This document shows, piece by piece, positions 39,110 through 62,600 of a DNA stretch of 64,000 nt (positions within the stretch are counted from its first letter, which is position 1; every line of letters starts with the position of its first letter). Below the pieces are notes generated by a model. The model was not told where the DNA came from. It ran no database searches and was given only the letters and a program-made list of their open reading frames with translations. Source of the DNA: Laccaria trichodermophora. Its lineage: Eukaryota > Basidiomycota > Agaricomycetes > Agaricales > Hydnangiaceae. The stretch spans positions 4,402,001 to 4,466,000 of the forward strand of contig JACTVC010000001.1 in NCBI GenBank assembly GCA_018417955.1. Reading direction: 5' to 3'. A program made the position numbers and the translations under genes.

Positions 39110-39815
39110 TGATGACGCATGCCATTGTCACTGTTCAGACGATGTGGCACATCTGCCATGTCATCTTCACATCCTCGGCGCTTGTCAATGGCCACAGGTG
39201 GTCTGCGATGATGTTGCCTGTTGTCATGTGTCATTGATGTGTTGTTGTTGTTGATGTGGGCAGTTGTGGTTTGTCAAGGTGGTGAGGGATGGTGGATGGG
39301 CATCAGATGGTGGTGGTGGTGGGGAAGGAAGGAACAATGTGGTGATGTTTCAGCCTCAGCATGTCACAGATATGATGCCATGTGCCTTGGTGTGGTATAT
39401 ATTTACCTTTAGTTTAGCATATAAGAAAGCCTGTATGGCTCAGTTGGCTTTAGCATTGCTGTTATTGATGGTTTTGAGGGTTCAATTCTCATAGATGAAT
39501 TTTTTTTTTTTTACTTAGATATACTATAAATACTGTGTTCATATGTATTCTAATGGTATATTGGTCTTCCATGGAATCCATATGGAATGCTCCATGGAAT
39601 TCAATGTGGAAATGCCTGCATTCCATATGGAATCCAATGGAATCCATAGGGAATGGTGTTGGAGTCCATATGGAATTAATCTTTCCATGACCATTCCATC
39701 ATCATTCCATATGGAATCCATGATGTCTATGGAATAAGAAACTGGCTGGGTCCTCAGCCAACATTGATTCCATGGATTCCATACAGAATAACCTGGGGAA
39801 GGTAAAGACCTTGGA
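39110..39815 (+). mobile_element. Repeat element with tRNA-like head and CCATATGG-rich tail, copy 1
   Basis: Aligns with 52860-53640. A pol III-like head has an A-box-like TGGCTCAGTTGG at 39436-39447, a B-box-like GGTTCAATTCT at 39479-39489 and a long T run after it. The tail (39560-39790) is packed with CCATGGAATCC and CCATATGGAAT, and the element ends at GGGGAAGGTAAAG. The part 5' of the head is GTGG-rich, a decayed form of the minisatellite in the other copy. It is not a functional tRNA: the acceptor stem does not pair. Confidence 0.65.
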
Positions 39816-52860: not shown

Positions 52861-53640
52861 GTGATGTGGTGGTGGTTTCTCGTGGCCGAGCGGACACAGC
52901 GAACGACGACTGATGTCGTCGTTCGCCGTCTAGTTGCCACGTCGCGACGTGGCACCTGTGGTTTTGTGTCAAAAAGGAGAGGGTGGGGTGGTTGTTCCCA
53001 CTCACCTGGGCTGGGCCCTCGTCACGCGTCGTCAGCGTCAGCGTCGTCGTCGTCGTCGTTGTCGACGTCGCGGGCGGTCGTGGTTTGGAATGGTGGTGGT
53101 GGTGGTGGTAGTGGGAAGGAATGGAACGACGTGTCAACGCTTCAGCCACAGCTGTCACGTTTGACGCGGCACGTGCCCGAAAGCGGTATATAGAGACCTT
53201 TCGTTTCTAATATAATAATGCCTTCATGGCTCAGTTGGCTTGAGCACTGCTTATATTCATGAGGTTGAGAGTTCAATTCCTTGACATGTCATTTTTTTAT
53301 TTACTTAAATATAGTAAGGACACTGTATTCTAATGGTATAATAGTCATTAATTCCTTCCATGGAATCCATATGGACTGCTCCATGGAATACATGTGGATA
53401 TACCTGCATTCCATATGGAATCCAATGGAATCCATATGGAATGGTGTTGGAGTCCATATGGAATTAATCATTCCATGACCATTCCAGCATCATTCCATAT
53501 GGAATCCATGATGTCCATGGAATCAGAAACTGGCTGTGTCCTCAGCCAACATTGATTCCATGGATTCCATATGGAATTCTCCATGGATTCCATGGATTCC
53601 ACATGGATTCCATATGGATTATACCGGGGAAGGTAAAGAC
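52861..53640 (+). mobile_element. Repeat element with tRNA-like head and CCATATGG-rich tail, copy 2
   Basis: The head GCCTTCATGGCTCAGTTGG starts at 53220, with an A-box-like motif at 53227-53238, a B-box-like AGTTCAATTCC at 53270-53280 and a T run at 53291-53297. A GGTATATAGAG box lies about 30 bp upstream. The tail (53350-53620) consists of CCATGGAATCC and CCATATGGAATCC words, which are largely palindromic, and it ends CCGGGGAAGGTAAAG. This copy keeps more CpG than 39110-39815. The layout recalls a tRNA-derived SINE, but with several hundred bp upstream of the head. Confidence 0.68.
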
Positions 53641-53706: not shown

Positions 53707-53967
53707 AACCTCAAACCACCATAGTGTTTATTACGTGGGTGGTCAGCGATCGTGCCTTCATCAGGCAATTCCTCGAGCTTGCGTTTCAAACGATTTTCGT
53801 GGGGATCAATGGGATCAGTCATGGTGGTTCAGAAGAGAGAATCAATGCTGTGCGGCGTCAATCTTCAAAATGGGTAATGGACCGTTTCACAGAGTCAGCT
53901 GACATTCCTGATTGAGGTCACTCCCACTTGCCTCCCACAGTGGTTCGGCATCAAGTCAGGCGGCCTG
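53707..53967 (+). repeat. Interspersed repeat R2, copy 2
   Basis: Direct copy of 12178-12422. The similarity stops near CAAGTCAGGCGG at 53964, just before the transposase-exonuclease element, so that element may have inserted at or near its end. Confidence 0.85.
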
Positions 53968-54117
53968 GGTATCATAGTTGTGGGAATAAAAAAAGAAAAA
54001 GAGAAAAATTCCCAAAAAGGAAAGGAGAAAAGAGAGAAAAAAGGAATTTCTTAGATTTATTAGTACTATGACACTTTCCAAGGTAAAAACAATTTATTGA
54101 ACACTACAAATTAAGAA

Positions 54118-57100
54118 CTACATAGATTTGTTGGCATCCTGAGTATTCAACATTTCACAGGGAAGAGAAGGGTGTCTGCTGTCTTTCCCTTTACATTCCT
54201 TCAACTTGCATGAAGCACAGGCATTTTGGCACAGATCTTTTCTGACCCTTCCTTTACACCCTTCAATCTCACATTTCCAGCATCTCTTTGAAGCTCGTTT
54301 TGTAACAGTGTCCTGCTTAGACTTCTTGTCTTTCTTCTTGCTGTTTGATGTCCCTGTTCCACTATGCAATATACTTGGTCCTGCAACTGAACTATCTTCA
54401 AGTGGGAAGTGGATATCAAAAAGCAGCTCAGGGTCTTGATCACTGGAATGCAGGCTAATCAGTTGTTTTCCTGACATTGGTTGCTGGGTAACTGGCAAAG
54501 TCATTGCATGATATGTTTGTGAAGCTATATTCCTTTCAGGGTTGTGAATCTGAGCCTCAATTCCTTTGCGCTGAGAACTGGTCTGGGACTGTGTGGCAAG
54601 ATGTGCAATATTTGTCTGCCAGACAGTATAATATGCTGTCAGATGTTCTTCAAGCTAGAAGTATAATTTCTGAGAAATATTTTGACATTAAATTAAGAAA
54701 TATTCTCACCTTGTAAAATATAGTTTTGCCATCAGCATAATCACGATTCCAAATTTGAACACCAGTCCTCCAGTCAGGTTCCTGTTTATTCCGATTGAAA
54801 TATGGATTTGTTTGGATCAAGTTAGAGAATAACTGCTTTTCAGGAACAGTATGAATGGCAACAACTGCAAACTGTGTTTGTTGTCGCTGAGCAAGAAATT
54901 GATGCAGTGTCTTTGAGGTGACTCCAGAAATATAGGGCTGCATCAAGGCTTTAGTGCAGAGTGTAGGAGGAATTGGCAAAATTCCTGAGACTTCTGATGT
55001 ATCCACATAGAGTGAGCCATTAGTCCAACCTTGAATTCTGTAGGAAAGTGGAACATGAATTCTGGTTTTTTCAATCATTGTTTGAAGTTCATCATAAAGC
55101 CAAATGTCATCATGTCCAACAAATCTATGTCCAGTTCGGTTTTTGGTTCCAACATGGAGATTATGATGGAGTTGAAAATCAGCTAGTCTGTTGACAGCAT
55201 TACGAGCTGAAATGATAGAATCTGGGAAACAAGCCCAAATAGAATGATGAACACCTCCTTCAGTAAAGTTTGTGCCTCTGATACACCGCCATATTGGTAA
55301 TCCATTCTCCTTTCTATCAAGGCCAACCTGATAGTAAAGTGGGATACCAGGAGGATCTGAAAGATATCCAGCTTGAATTGTTTTCAAAATATTCCAAGCA
55401 CTCTTCCAGGCAACTGGTGAAAATAAAGGTTGTCCAGTCATAGAGTCTTTTAGTGGCCCATATACTTTGAAGATATTTTCAACTAAATCATAAAGCTGTT
55501 CAGGAGGTGGTATATACTGTCGAACAAGTTTCCACAATGACTTGGGCTGGAACTTCAATTTCTCATTCCATGATGATCCTTCAGATTTCAACCAAGCCTC
55601 TACTAATGCATGATCTTCTGCATTGAGTAAGAAATTTGCATCACGCATTGCTCTTGCAAATTGTAGATGCAGTCCATGACTTTTTGGAATTGATATTCTA
55701 TCAAAGATGTGCCATGGATCCAGAAGAACTCTGCTGCAAATAGGTCTAGCACTTGATGCTGGATTTTCTTGTAAGTTAGTCAATACTTTATTGCAAATTT
55801 GAGTACTGGTAGAATCTTTTTCTGCATCCTGAGCTGCATTTTCTGGGGGAGCATCATGGTCAACTTCAAGATCAGCATCAGCAGTCCAGGAATTGTCAGT
55901 GAGACTTGGATTCTCAGCATCCAGTTGTATATCACATGTTGGTGTGTCTAAAGCAACAGTTTCTTGGGTTGCTTCATCACTCTCAATTTCTTGAATGACT
56001 GAAACATGTACTTGTTTTCTTTTACAAACAAGTGTAAAAGGTGGTGGTCCAAAGTCTTTGAGTGCCTGATTTTTGTGACTCTCAATGATTGCCCCTAGGA
56101 CAGAAACCTTTTGAACTTCAATTGCAACTATTTTGTCAGATGTGTGGAGGGCAATGTTATCAATGACTGCATTCTCTTCAGAGTTTAGAGAAGACCAGGT
56201 GCCATATGCAATTATTTTTTGCCCATCCTCCTGGTAAATTATTACAGGTAGCCCTGGAGCTGCATTTTGAGGTACATTTCCATATTTTTCAAGCTCAACA
56301 AGCTTTTCATAGATGCATTTTGAAGCATGTGCATCCTGGGCAATATACATGATCTGCTCCTGGGAAAGATTGGCATTCTCCCATTCCATGCTCACTCGAA
56401 TGGCATCATCCTTGTTTAGCTTGAAGCCTAAAACTAGGGCTGATAGCTCTGTTAAGCTTACTCTTGCATTTGGAGCTACATGACACCTTTTGGCAAGGGG
56501 GGCAAGTTCAATAGCCCCTGGGAATGAATCTTTAATCTTTGCCACTGTCTGAAGCTGCTTCAAATCATTTTTAATCCCCCTGCCCACTTTCAAAATGTGC
56601 TCATCAGCAAGTATATTCTTGATTGCAACAGGAAGCTTTCCAGCATTTGTATATTGGGATATCTGAAGGACAAAAATCTGGTTTTCAAATGAAATAGCAA
56701 CCACTGCTGTCTTTCCCTGTTTTGAGTTACCAGGAGTTCTGTCAACATTCCACTCTGTATCGAATCCAATGATCACTGTACCATTTTCACCAATTTCTGA
56801 TAGCTTTTCATGAATGCATGCTAGTGCAGTTTGAAACTGTGAAGCATTGGACTTGATATGGATGGATACACCCTCTGGAATGGAGTAGAGGGGATAATTC
56901 ACATATTTATCCACAGGCTGAACTTCTTTTAGTAGAGATGGAAAGCATTTCTCCAAGAATGCTTTATCAGCAATATTGTCTGTATAGAATATTTCAACTT
57001 CTCCAAGTCCATAGAGCTTCAATGATTCTCTCATATTGACTAGTGCAATTTCAAATTGAGCATGAGCTTTTGTAGCAACTAGTGCAATTATTCGTATTTC

Positions 57101-59065
57101 ACCCATTTCATTGGTTACAGTAAGCAAGCCAATAAACACAGCAACACCATTAATTTTAACAATATGCTTTGTGATCTTGTGAGAATGATCAATTGCACAG
57201 ATTCTTGCAGACAACATGGATGAATATTGATATATTCTTGGAAGATGAGCTTCAATGAATGAATCATAGAGGTCACGAAACCAAGTGGAGCATGGAACAT
57301 ATCCTGAATATCCTTGAGGATCAGCAAATTCAGAGAATGGTTGAAATGAATGATTTTTCCAACAACTTTGACTCTGGCCTTCAAATATCATGTGTAGATA
57401 CTGAAGATGAATTTGATCAAAGCGACGCATATGCAAAATAGTGAGAATACTTGAGAATTGATTTGCTCCTAGTCCTTTTTGGAATAAAGAACATTGTAAG
57501 GCAAGAATAGGAGACAATAAAGCACTTCGCTTGGTGAGAACTACAGGAAATTCTGCTGCAAGTGCTTTTGGCAAAGCTGCTAAAATTCTTGGGTCCCAGC
57601 TCATAAATGTGACTGTTTTCTTTCCAGTGATGGGGTTTGCACAAGTTGGGCACTTGTATCGAGCACCAATCATCCAAAAGCATTTATCAAGACCAACACC
57701 TCGCCGAGGTATCTTGTGGAGTCCATGACGATTTAACCAAGAGAGCTTGCAAATGGGGCATTTAATTTTGGTTAACAACTCTGGGTCCCAATAGAACAGC
57801 TCAAAATCATACAGTGCTTCAGGTTCAAGGGACTTTGCCTTTGTCATTATGAACCACCCTGCCTTTTTAGGAACCCAAAAGGTTTCATAAACCTCATAGA
57901 ATGTGGCCCTATTATTTCTGTCCTTTTTTTCAATGATAGCTAATTTTTCTTCCAGAGCCTTTTTGAACCATGGGGGAAATGATTGCGATTTCTGAGGTTG
58001 TTCTTCTGCCCCACCTTCATTGAAGTCAAGATCTGATTCATCAGCCTCTACTCCTACAAATCCATAACTTTCTACTCCAATGCCATCATCTTCATTGCTA
58101 TCTTCAAAAATGGCAGTTTCATCAGAGTCAGGAATAATGGCACAGGTTGGGATATTTTCCAAACCAGGTAGAGCTGAATTATCTCTAATATTGTCCCCAT
58201 TCTTTTGAGAAAGCCATTGTGCAACTGATGTATACTTTGGGCCACAAGGTGCATCTTTATCCCATAGACGAGGGAGCTTAAAGGAACTATTCTGGTCATT
58301 GGGAGAAGGAGCATCTGGTGTGAGTGCTCGCTTTTGTTTGCCCTTTGACTTTGCAGATAGCTCAACAAGTTTTGGTCGTCCTCGTGGCTGCTTTGGCTCA
58401 TTTAAAAAACGTGCACCACTCGCTTCATCCATATCCACATCAATGAATTGGAATGAAGGGACAGCTGAAGTATCAGAATGCTGTGTATCAGCATTAAAAG
58501 AGCTTCCCCCAGTATAAGAACCATCAAGGTCAATGATCATAGGGCCAGAATTATGTGATAAAGAACTTAAAGAGCTCTCAAGGTTCCCAGGATTACTAAA
58601 TGGGTACATCTTAGACCCAGAGCTTTCCAGATTACTAAATGTATAAGACCCAGAGCTCTCAAGATGATTAGACACATCTGTTTGGCCAGGCTGATCACTG
58701 GCAGAATCCAGAGTTATATGTGCATGAGGCTCCAACCCAGATAAGCTTTCCAGATTATTATATATATAAGACCCAGAGCTCTCAAGACTATCAGACACAT
58801 TTTTTTGGCCAAGGTAGTCACCAGCAGAATGCAAAGTTGGATGTGCATGAGGGTCCAACTCAGGGGAGAAACTCATTGGAAGATCACTGGTATGGTTAGG
58901 TGGCTCATAAAAGGGAAGTAAAGGAAGTGTGGAGGATTGGTTATCTAGGCTACAACAAATCCAACATACATCAATACTAGAGCATGAGTTGAATTGCCAA
59001 TTCTTACCCAGAATTTTCTGATTGAAAATCAGACATGACAACATCTCCCATTTGTGAGGAAACAT
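54118..59065 (-). CDS. DDE-type transposase with Cys-rich N-terminus and embedded WRN-type 3'-5' exonuclease
   Basis: Two exons, 59065-54710 and 54654-54118, with a 55-nt GTGAG..CTAG intron, about 1630 aa. Regions: acidic Ser-rich start with LESSGSY-type near-repeats and GPMIIDLDG (to about 200); an AT-hook-like PRGRPK (about 230); a CPIC..CPTC zinc-binding region typical of fungal DUF6729 (about 400-500); an RNase H-like core with Asp626 in AIDHSHK and Asp696 in FYTDN; then a DEDDy exonuclease with Asp769/Glu771 (GFDTEW), Asp834 (KNDLKQL), Tyr907 and Asp911 (YIAQD). After an acidic linker comes CIRGTNFTEGGVHHSIW with Glu1269, like the T-N-x-x-E of MULE/IS256 transposases, then FVGHDDIW. The 3' exon ends in a Cys cluster (CWKCEIEGC..CASCKLKEC). 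The frame upstream reads on from 59311 except for a TGA at 59117, so the true start is uncertain; MSFSPELD at about 58875 is an alternative. The transposase reading is inference; the exonuclease is clear. Confidence 0.8.
54655..54709 (-). other. 55-nt intron in the transposase-exonuclease gene
   Basis: Donor AAG|GTGAGAATA at 54709 and acceptor CTTCTAG|CTTGAAG at 54655. Splicing joins KTIFYK to LEEHLTAYY in frame and adds the C-terminal Cys-rich exon of about 178 codons. Confidence 0.85.
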
Positions 59066-59116
59066 TGTCTGAAGCAGATCTGAAGGGGGATATTTAAAGA
59101 GAACAGTTTTTTCATC

Positions 59117-59311
59117 TCATTCCAGTACATACTGAGCTGGAGCACTGGTTGGAACTCCATCTAAAATGAGCAATTCTTCCTGTGTCAGATTACAAAAGAA
59201 TTCATCATCAAATTCATTGGGGATAGCATCAAATTCTAGACTCAAAATATGTGAATAAAGAAGAATTGGTGACAGAACAACTGACCATCTGGGACTTGGT
59301 CCATAGCACAA
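59117..59311 (-). other. Upstream in-frame extension of the transposase-exonuclease gene
   Basis: This block (FDDEFFCNLTQEELLILDG to AQYVLE) is in the same frame as the main coding region. It is separated by one TGA (59117-59119), beyond which DEKTVLFKYPPSDLLQ leads straight into MFPHKWEM. It looks like a genuine 5' part cut by one CGA-to-TGA change, or an exon spliced differently. A GTCAG..TCTAG intron may lie near 59230-59290. Confidence 0.5.
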
Positions 59312-59560
59312 TCAAGATCAAAGCAGATCAGTGGGATCTAGGAGGATCTATCACAGAATATGTCAAGAAATGGATATTATTCAGTGCACAATCAATATAT
59401 CTTACATATTTTGATGAGTAGCACAAGAAATGATACAGTAGACGAGGATGTGGGAAGAGAAGATATCAAAAAAGTCGAAAATGTGAAGTACAAGACAAAG
59501 AAGAGAGGTGTGGGAACTTGTTACCAGAATTGGTGGCAGTTTCTGTTTATGGATTTTTTT

Positions 59561-59613
59561 GATAGCAGCTGCTATCAATTTCCAAATACGGAATTTTGAT
59601 AGCAGCTGCTATG
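59561..59613. repeat. Two copies of the palindrome GATAGCAGCTGCTATC
   Basis: A perfect 16-bp palindrome at 59561-59576 and a near copy at 59598-59613, 37 bp apart, lie upstream of the transposase-exonuclease gene, right at the border with the F1 repeat. Repeated palindromes at element edges often bind transposase. I found no clear matching end on the other side. Confidence 0.75.
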
Positions 59614-59639
59614 GCCCACAGGTATGAGAACTCTGCGTA

Positions 59640-62600
59640 TGTGCGTCCTGGTCGTCGCCGTTTGAGCCGTGTCGGAGAGCCAGCAGACGAAGTCATCCTT
59701 CGTTGTTGTCGGCCATTCAAGCTCCACGGTACTGGTGCTGGGAGGTGAGAGTGGAACTATCATTCGTTCACTTGGAAAGGCCTCCATATGTGGGACCAAT
59801 GGTGAGATATTGGCATCTGTGAGTCGATGTCGTTACCTTGTGTTGTCTGAAAGGTTCCGTTATGTTTTTACCTTTGCCTAGATTTGCTTCAAAGTTCAAC
59901 CGCACCTGCTCATGTCAGTAAGCTTTATGCGCGAATAATGCTCCAATTCGTACTCACGCGCTCGAACGAAGGACAAGGAAATGTCAAGAGCGTTCAGTCG
60001 AACGGAACGTGGGTCACACCTGGGTCACAGTCATCTTCAAGGACACCATGACGTTGGGTAATCATTCCATCTCATAGTCGTAACTCCAGAGGGCTGATCT
60101 ATCTTTGCAGAGTTCTTCGTGCCCAGTGAGGACGCGCACCAATGTGAACACGTCATTCCGAGTGCCATGCGAATGGGGAACTTGAACATCTGAGGGTGAG
60201 TTCGCGCTTTCTCTTATCTTCTTCTGGGGTCTAAATCTGTTTCCACTCTAGCTTACCGCGTCGGCGGGCCAAGCGAAGTTGACGACTTTATCAATTGCTC
60301 TTTGTTGCAGAGGACTCGCCTTATAACGCCGATTGCACTTAATCTTCCATTCAGATGTGCAAGAGGCTCGGAAGTGTTATCGCATCATCTCGACTCGCCA
60401 ATGGCATGCCGCTCAAGATCTTTGACCTTTGATACGATCCGCAACGTCCATCTCTAGCCGCCGCGTCGCCTACGTGTACCAAGTAAAACAACAAACGTTC
60501 TGAATTTCCCCCATGTATCGTCATCGTGCCCTCTTCCTCGTTGTGGTCGTATTTCAAGGAACGTCGCGTTGGAAGGGGAGGAAGTGGGTTCTTCGATTAG
60601 GATGTGCACGGATCGTTCTCTAAGTATGCTTCTTTCTCCCTTCTCTTTTTTCCAAAACACGTCGCTGACACTGCATACAGTCCAACAAAGTCCACCCCGT
60701 TCTCAATCGTCATGCTCTCCTGGATTCTATTCCACAAGACAAATAAGGGCTCACCCCTTTCTCCGACCTTCTCCTACCCGTGGCCAACTCTGGGCTGCTG
60801 CTTAAGATTCGTAAAATCCACACAATACCTCAAAAGAAAGTGCTTGGTGGTCAACTCCGAGCGCATGGCCGAGCGGAGTATAGGTCAGCGCAGAATCCTG
60901 CCGTATGCGCTTACCCCGCTCTTGATTGGATGGAGGATAGCAGAGAGGGAAACGGTTTTGGGAGATTGGGGGGTGGCGATCAAGAGCGATGGGTTATCCC
61001 TGTTAGTAGCGCTCTTTTTGGAGAGCCGCCAGTCACCGCTCTGTCTCGTCCTTTCGACTGGGGTAAGCATTCGCTTCCCTCTTTCTTCAATCTTCCAGTA
61101 ATCAACTTCCATTCTCTATAGCCGCTACGTTCACCTCCGTTGGTGATCGGCTAGCCGCTCTTGCACTTTCAGTTTGTGCGTGGAATTGAAGATGGCTTCT
61201 ATCTGCGTGGTAAGTCTCTCGAATTGTTCCTCGATGATACGAACAACACCATCTCTTTGACAGAATGACTTCCCTCATCAACGGTCATCGGATTTCTGAA
61301 ACGCCTTTCGACCCCCACTATCCTCGTGATTCTAGTGCCTGCTAAACTCGTTTTGCCAGGCCATGCACGCTTTCAACGGGTTTCTTTGGCACCCTCCTGT
61401 GGTCCGTCTTTTTGTTTCTCCCTTTCTATCTTTACTCATGCATGTATCTTAGACTCTTAGCCGGTCACAATTGAGTCTCATCGTTTGTAGGGCATGGAAG
61501 ATGGTTCAACTTGGGTTAGCGTTTATTCGGAAGGTCGTAAAACAACGTACTTAATGACCTCAAGAATAGCATAGGAAACGCCGAGCATGACTGACCGATT
61601 GGACAACTTGAGGGCTTTCGGACGTTGGGTTATCGGTGAGTTTACACCCCACAGTCATAACTCCAGAGGGCTAATCTATCATTGCAGCGTTCTTCGGGCC
61701 CAGTGAGGACGCACCTCAGTGTGAATACGTCGCCAGTGATATGCGACTGGAGATCATGTCAGGGTAAGTTTCGTGATTTCTCTTCGCTTCTTCTGGGGTC
61801 TAAACTTATTTCCACTCTAGCTTTCTGCATCGGCGGGCCAAGCGAAGTCGACGTCCGCGTATTCAATCACCGACTCACGGTACTAGCTAAAGTCTCAACG
61901 TTCGACGCTTGTCTTCCTCATGAAGGATGACCGCAACGAATTCATATGAACGACTCGCTTTCAGAGTGCGCCGCTGGATCTATGCACATCGGTGGATTTG
62001 GAAAATCCCGACGGAGCTATTGCATAGGCTCCCTCCCTCCCGGACTCAAAAGGCGACGACACATGCCCTAAAACTTAACTCTTCCTATACGAGCGTAGAC
62101 CCCACAATCGAGGGATCCGCTCGCTTGCAAGTCAACGCGACCGCCAACTCAGAGGGCTTTGGGCCGTCGTCTATGGTTACCTCGCAGGCCATCATGCATT
62201 GTCTTCGGATCATGATCAGCATAGGAGACTTTCTGCAGAGGGCAGTGCGCCGTTCGTTATAGACCCTCTTAAGTGGATCTGCTAGCCCACTTCCGCTCCC
62301 GTTCCTCCTCTGCAACGAACGCAGCCGCTTCTCACACACTTAATCATCGCAACATTCGCTCCGTGCTTCGTGACACCTACTTCTACCCCCTGCTCCATAA
62401 CACGGACGTAGGTCGTATATACACCACTTCCAATCACCTCTAGTCAAGCATGCTAGCGCTGTAGATCGTAAACCCAGTTCTTCACCTGCACCTCTCGCGG
62501 TATCCCGCATTCTCGACTCTTGGCATCTTCAACGCCAGAACTGTCACGTTTGCGTCCTTTGCCGTGAATTCCTCAGGCAAAGGAAGGTAGTCGCGTGATT

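Follow-up and report, generated by a model that had tools for sequence, protein, structure and literature searches.

The window (the whole stretch analysed: 64,000 nucleotides, G000:C1:4402001-4466000 of the 59-Mb genome of Laccaria trichodermophora) contains a DNA transposon, copy A, whose minus-strand gene encodes a protein (P0001) that we assign, from its sequence, to the transposases: an RNase H-like core with the residues D642, D712 and E1285 and a DxWH motif, interrupted by a DEDDy 3'-5' exonuclease (Table 1). Residue numbers follow P0001; those of an earlier note on this DNA are 16 lower. The N-terminal ~370 residues are weakly conserved in the alignment, and by inspection the main frame probably contains introns in this part. 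At the other end, the apparent shift of the last 178 residues is explained by a short GT-AG intron, the splicing of which links FYK to LEEHL where homologues read YKL.E.L; damage to the frame is thereby ruled out as its cause. The near-intact frame described in the earlier note stands as far as its 1488 open codons are concerned, with the seeming break being an intron. The span given for it (54118..59311) is replaced by a coding part of 54118-59116 and a mobile element of 53962-59637.

The DUF6729 domain ahead of the core includes zinc-finger-like cysteines (C452, C455, C488, and C491), the first three of which are at least 90% conserved in a 26-row alignment. D642 and D712 are 70 residues apart. 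The exonuclease was identified both by Pfam (DNA_pol_A_exo1, residues 776-939, E 1.7e-13) and by phmmer against PDB, in which P0001 matches the WRN exonuclease (3.7e-12), and all of the DEDDy motifs are present: GFDTEW (D785 and E787), NDLKQL (D850), and YIAQD (Y923 and D927). It is followed, within the same insertion, by a beta-rich segment (residues ~956-1037) that matched no Pfam family in P0001; this segment is conserved. The complete exonuclease of WRN/RNase D type, and the D, D, and E residues of an RNase H-like fold, that had been recognised in the earlier note were both recovered.

Table 1. Features of copy A and its gene, in window positions.
Feature	Position	Strand	Basis or remark
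Whole transposon, copy A, 5,676 bp	53962..59637	gene on -	identity limit with copy B, derivatives
8-bp target duplication AGTCAGGC, copy A 3' side	53954..53961	.	partner at copy B 5' end
3' terminal inverted repeat, GGCCTGGGTATCATAGTTGTGGGA	53962..53985	.	comparison with 5' end
Last exon, 178 codons + stop	54118..54654	-	open-frame list, intron check
Cysteine-rich C-terminal cluster	54157..54282	-	like clusters at the ends of several homologues
Main open frame, 1488 codons	54650..59116	-	start codon not required
GT-AG intron, 55 nt	54655..54709	-	accounts for the seeming frame change
Catalytic E1285 in TNFTE	55259..55261	-	alignments
Helical part after DxxH, residues ~1149-1247, including W1236	55373..55669	-	model; insertion position from PMC7780238
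DPWH = DxxH motif (D1132/H1135), residues 1132-1135	55709..55720	-	alignments
Beta-rich segment, residues ~956-1037	56003..56248	-	alignment, model
DEDDy 3'-5' exonuclease, residues 776-939	56297..56788	-	D785, E787, D850, Y923, D927
Catalytic D712, after core strand 4	56978..56980	-	alignments, model
Catalytic D642, end of core strand 1	57188..57190	-	alignments, model
DUF6729 domain, residues 410-616	57266..57886	-	Pfam PF20499, E 4.2e-13
5' terminal inverted repeat, - strand CGCAGAGTTCTCATACCTGTGGGC	59614..59637	.	comparison with 3' end
8-bp target duplication TATGTGCG, copy A 5' side	59638..59645	.	partner at copy B 3' end

A search of 5.8 billion protein sequences returned 38 relatives, and those that are named all belong to basidiomycetes (including Laccaria, Psilocybe, Lyophyllum, Mycena, Agaricus, and Tulasnella); over its aligned part, one from Laccaria (P0005, taken from a shorter gene model) has 82% identity with the window piece. 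D642, D712, D785, D850, D927, D1132, H1135, and E1285 are invariant in the 26-row alignment. In a 37-row alignment of the window piece with 36 relatives (mostly basidiomycete or unnamed, and one of diatom type), counting rows with a letter at the position, the core residues D642 (33/33), D712 (36/36), and E1285 (34/34) are kept without exception, as are D785 (36/36), D850 (36/36), and D927 (37/37) of the exonuclease, with E787 kept in 34/36 and Y923 in 35/37 rows. The diatom type comprises ten proteins found by a search with P0039 (itself included), only one of which is named (P0161, Skeletonema menzelii); the exonuclease is at the same place in the seven that were profiled, and each of its residues is kept in all ten, except D850 (9/10). 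W1236 is kept in 34/36 rows but in only one of seven diatom-type proteins as aligned, and for this reason it was not used as the hAT/MULE tryptophan.

The position of the exonuclease is made plain by relatives that lack it (P0040-P0159, from animals and unnamed sources; 773 matches). PF20499 was found in all 120 of those listed, and a Pfam exonuclease domain in none of these 120 animal-type proteins. Their profile aligns with that of the exonuclease-bearing proteins in two parts (hhalign E 1e-25 and 3.3e-19): the part ahead of the exonuclease is matched as far as column 416, the part behind it from column 420 on, and 29/29 aligned animal-type rows are gapped at the exonuclease. The core residues are mostly kept in these 29 rows (D1 in 26, D2 in 25, the D of DxxH in 29, E in 25/27) and in a larger set of 59 (52, 53, 59, and 54/57, respectively). 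The two-part alignment therefore indicates that some 390 residues, made up of the exonuclease and the segment next to it, have been inserted as one block between D2 and DxWH; by profile alignment and model, the block comes after the helix that follows D2 and before the strand that runs into DxWH. In ISCth4, the helical insertion starts at the C/DxxH motif (PMC7780238); here, by alignment and model, the exonuclease is a separate insertion ahead of the helical part, which remains after DxWH. The placement between Asp2 and Glu in the earlier note is accordingly borne out by profile and residue alignments; its suggestion that the exonuclease fills the insertion point of hAT, P, MULE, and IS256 transposases is not, since the helical part is retained after DxWH and the exonuclease precedes that motif.

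Structural matches of the window-protein model to PDB were filled by the exonuclease (including WRN, 2E6L), and for this reason an animal relative without exonuclease was modelled. Its top match was ISCth4 of the IS256 family (6XGX and 6XG8; 11% identity); chains of hAT, P-element, Transib, and RAG1 were not among the 50 PDB structural matches listed, which excludes none of them. When PDB sequences were searched with the animal-alignment profile, Ran GTPase-activating protein 1 was the sole match, and a weak one (E 0.28). The resemblance to ISCth4, the nearest solved fold, is one of the points that could make P0001 a plain MULE (Mutator) transposase with an extra domain, along with a weak PF10551 match in 3/26 proteins (best E 0.048) and 8-bp target duplications (see below), which fall within the MULE range of 8-11 (PMC6446971). 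We nevertheless regard this as improbable: PF10551 did not exceed the Pfam cut-off in any of 26 exonuclease-bearing or 29 animal proteins, and no match came from hhalign with MULE proteins encoded in this genome, a comparison of low power with two sequences only.

The limits of the element were defined by comparison with other copies in the genome. Copy B (G000:C1:4467691-4473304) is inverted and starts 1.7 kb past the window end; the two copies are 100% identical over 5,614 bp between unrelated flanks, with identity beginning exactly at 53962. The 5' end at 59637 was set by derivative junctions and the interrupted end of copy B, and ends at 59575 or 59612 were rejected because the derivatives show 59637. 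The terminal inverted repeats are imperfect (15/24 identities, a level reached by 0.02% of 20,000 random window pairs), and imperfect ends of this kind were not picked up by an inverted-repeat scan of the window; other families in the genome have matching ends as well (GGCTGG or GGCTCTGG). A six-frame genome search, with 31/49 candidates scored, gave 36 matches that were grouped into 15 loci. A DNA search with the element, with 33/33 candidates scored, gave 72 matches; not counting copies A and B, the match starts exactly on the element's first base in 21 places. By our grouping, at least 12 places have both end regions within 2 kb, as short two-ended derivatives.

Target duplications were read in ten two-ended copies (L034, L036, L037, L038, L041, L045, and four derivatives), a set that leaves out L035, L039, L040, L042, L043, L044, and L046, as well as the derivative L065/L066, the right end of which is mismatched. 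Exact 8-bp repeats flank nine of the ten: GTAAACTC, CGTATTTC, CATATTTT, CAAATTTG, GGGATTCG, CTCTATCG, GTAAACTG, CTGGTGCG and, with the end moved by one base, ACGGACGG. Copy C6, which lies beside another element, has no target duplication. Copies A and B each lack a paired duplication of their own; the pairs are instead reciprocal between the two copies. The site of AGTCAGGC is seen uninterrupted in repeat copies elsewhere, as AAGTCAGGC|CACAAGGATGG in L052-L054 and with one base change per side in L055. All 11 duplications differ in sequence. The exchanged target duplications suggest that the stretch between A and B (G000:C1:4461638-4467042, from window position 59638 to past the window end) was inverted by recombination between them. 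The simplest account is that the element inserted twice and that A and B later took part in an inversion. An inverted duplication or assembly palindrome is ruled out by the unrelated flanks and the reciprocal duplications.

The terminal inverted repeats, 8-bp duplications, and derivatives uphold the view of the earlier note that this is a mobile element, and the identity of copies A and B agrees with its suggestion that the element is recent; the search for copies, borders, and target duplications that it had suggested yielded, in this genome, 15 loci and, in the copies read, defined ends and mostly 8-bp repeats. The conservation of the residues that it had named also speaks for its reading. 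The annotation of some homologues as Werner-like proteins or as 3'-5' exonucleases might be expected of a host gene or a domesticated protein that is not mobile, yet such an origin has next to no probability, given the inverted repeats and 8-bp duplications of the copies and the existence of derivatives, and a host gene is ruled out by the element borders.

Other features were noted at or near the copies. Copy A carries an extra 37 bp near its 5' end (59576-59612), bounded by a direct repeat and absent from copy B, which looks like the product of slippage or recombination within the element end. The 5' end of copy B is split by a 0.6-kb repeat (L032, G000:C1 ~4467070-4467680) with an end (AGCTGCC...) that starts elsewhere in the genome with different flanks; this is probably another mobile repeat. 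Beside copy A, positions 53356-53620 hold dense short palindromes built on TGGAATCCATATGGAATCCA, with a second copy at 39567-39789. Upstream of the degraded transposase copy L046, a cluster of direct and inverted 0.7-kb repeats occupies positions 495-2070 of that locus (G000:C12:934495-936070).

Starting from the observed architecture and its conservation, the observed ends and 8-bp duplications, and the recent movement, we give a probability of about 0.6 to the reading that this is a recently active cut-and-paste DNA transposon with a Dada-type transposase, in which a WRN-like exonuclease and a beta-rich insert have been added and the exonuclease trims ends. Transposase dimers would bind the GGC...TGTGG ends, and the DDE/DxWH site would cut and join with an 8-bp stagger. 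While the element is excised or the gap is repaired, the exonuclease, held beside the DDE site, could trim 3' ends, be they those of the transposon, of its flanks, or of the target; a trimming step of this kind was also proposed by Kojima and Jurka (2013; PMC3706591). For lineages in which the exonuclease is intact, 3'-end trimming is our best guess.

Several observations weigh against this reading, and against the trimming step in particular. In all four copies of the L034 family (L034, L035, L036, and L043; 96.7-99.7% identical), E787 is replaced by D and D927 by G, with DDE and DxWH kept where readable; L034 and L036 nevertheless occupy different sites, and each is flanked by an intact 8-bp duplication not shared with the other. 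The shared lesions and different insertion sites indicate that this family moved after the loss of these residues, either by itself or with the help of a relative. D927E occurs in L037/L038, and P0006 and P0007 are the exceptions in the 37-row alignment (E787K and Y923C). By the ratio of nonsynonymous to synonymous substitution rates (dN/dS), the exonuclease is as constrained as the core in one of six copy pairs, L039/L042 (0.093 vs. 0.109-0.126 for the core, the synonymous rate being near saturation), which speaks for it. For the five remaining pairs, some of them mapped through introns, the ratio lies at 0.25-0.46 or is undefined: 0.456 in L037/L038 (partly through an intron), 0.449 in L034/L043, 0.456 in L037/L046, 0.246 in L038/L046 (over 50 codons), and undefined in L041/L045, which show no synonymous change. 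The model of the exonuclease-less relative P0044 is also of low confidence (predicted local distance difference test score <50) across residues 558-576, which include E561.

Because the mobile L034 family has lost active-site residues, catalysis by the exonuclease may be dispensable; a strict need for it in transposition is not supported, and the proposed trimming is contradicted in part. The L034 family and the substitutions in P0006/P0007 would fit an exonuclease retained chiefly to bind DNA or to act as a spacer, with chemistry that is dispensable and occasionally lost. We hold this to be possible but doubtful, given the near-complete retention of E787 and the three aspartates in the 37-row alignment and of the catalytic residues in the diatom type, the low dN/dS of L039/L042, and the chance that the L034 copies were moved by a transposase acting in trans. 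As another alternative, the exonuclease could work on host DNA (resection of the donor break or flank, or removal of target flaps) and thereby steer repair instead of finishing the transposon ends. Transposases of the C/DxxH kind, hAT and MULE among them, leave behind flanking ends in need of processing, and 3' ends are what WRN-type enzymes act on; both points would favour a role on host DNA, which we consider unlikely all the same.

WRN is a helicase in which the exonuclease forms a domain of its own; the WRN structure (PDB 2E6L) shares its fold and DEDDy residues with the inserted domain. ISCth4 resembles the exonuclease-less relative in its RNase H core and helical insertion, but it has no exonuclease and is a copy-out/paste-in bacterial element (PMC7780238). 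An exonuclease, of DEDDh or lambda type, is also encoded by KolobokD and KolobokE, which are DDE transposons from a C/DxxH superfamily; these exonucleases belong to other families, the target duplications are 4-bp TTAA, and the lambda-type enzyme is downstream of the transposase domain (PMC9587614). TTAA duplications were not seen among the copies read, in which they are 8 bp instead. No KDZ (Zisupton, Kyakuja, Dileera), hAT, or P-element family was among the 11 Pfam families matched by 26 proteins at E <=0.1; a distant kinship to any of these is possible.

The architecture itself is no discovery here, because it has been in print since 2013: for Dada elements of Laccaria bicolor (Dada-1_LB and Dada-2_LB, the latter spanning 5,652 bp from table coordinates) and the brown alga Ectocarpus (Dada-1_ES), Kojima and Jurka (2013; PMC3706591) describe an exonuclease of DEDDy type that lies between D2 and DxxH, and propose 3'-end processing. 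The earlier note, in which no published mechanism was known, is superseded on this point; its observation is confirmed, and its interpretation partly supported. Likeness to Dada was judged from published descriptions rather than Repbase sequences. The shared characters are the DDE triad with DxxH after the second D, an N-terminal CCCC zinc finger, introns, and the position of the exonuclease, as in fungal and brown-algal members. The C-terminal CCHC zinc finger of Dada was found by pattern in 6/9 animal proteins tried and, among six exonuclease-bearing ones, only in P0011, in a CCCC form; the last exon of the window gene has a cysteine-rich cluster instead. The animal DUF6729 proteins have the same core and zinc domain but no exonuclease, and look like animal Dada because their CCCC/D/D spacing (commonest values 5; 33/32; 3; 138/135; 68) fits that of Dada-U6_DR (5, 35, 3, 135, 68), the cysteines to within 2-3 residues; D2-E spacing is 176 in Dada-U6_DR vs. 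mostly 187-193 in the DUF6729 set. No relevant literature on DUF6729 was found.

Published Dada elements with clear ends reside in small RNA genes, are flanked by duplications of 6-7 bp, and lack terminal inverted repeats (Kojima and Jurka, 2013; PMC3706591). The element described here has 8-bp duplications and terminal inverted repeats (15/24 in copy A), and no small RNA gene was found at its sites: ARAGORN predicted no tRNA in eight restored insertion sites, and Rfam gave no match in nine loci (87 kb), where a split gene could escape. A literature search, which did not cover full texts, found no report of terminal inverted repeats or 8-bp duplications in fungal Dada. Because duplications, ends, and small-RNA targeting differ, we regard the element as a variant on the Dada transposase and not as canonical Dada. 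The case also suggests that a link to small RNA genes is not a constant trait of Dada-type transposases. Exact ends, recent jumps, and copies with a decayed exonuclease are visible here; a single genome offers exact ends, two identical copies, short derivatives, and exonuclease-decayed relatives, as ready substrates and a natural contrast that bears on whether a nuclease inside a DDE core alters excision or joining. The odds are about even for a joint reading in which a basidiomycete Dada branch abandoned small-RNA-gene targeting, along with its subterminal repeats, and took on ordinary inverted repeats and duplications of 8 bp. The exonuclease would be optional in this branch, under constraint in some lineages but without its active site in at least one family of recent mobility. 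If true, this branch is a natural experiment on the role of the exonuclease. Overall, the element is real, mostly known in its architecture, and a variant of Dada.

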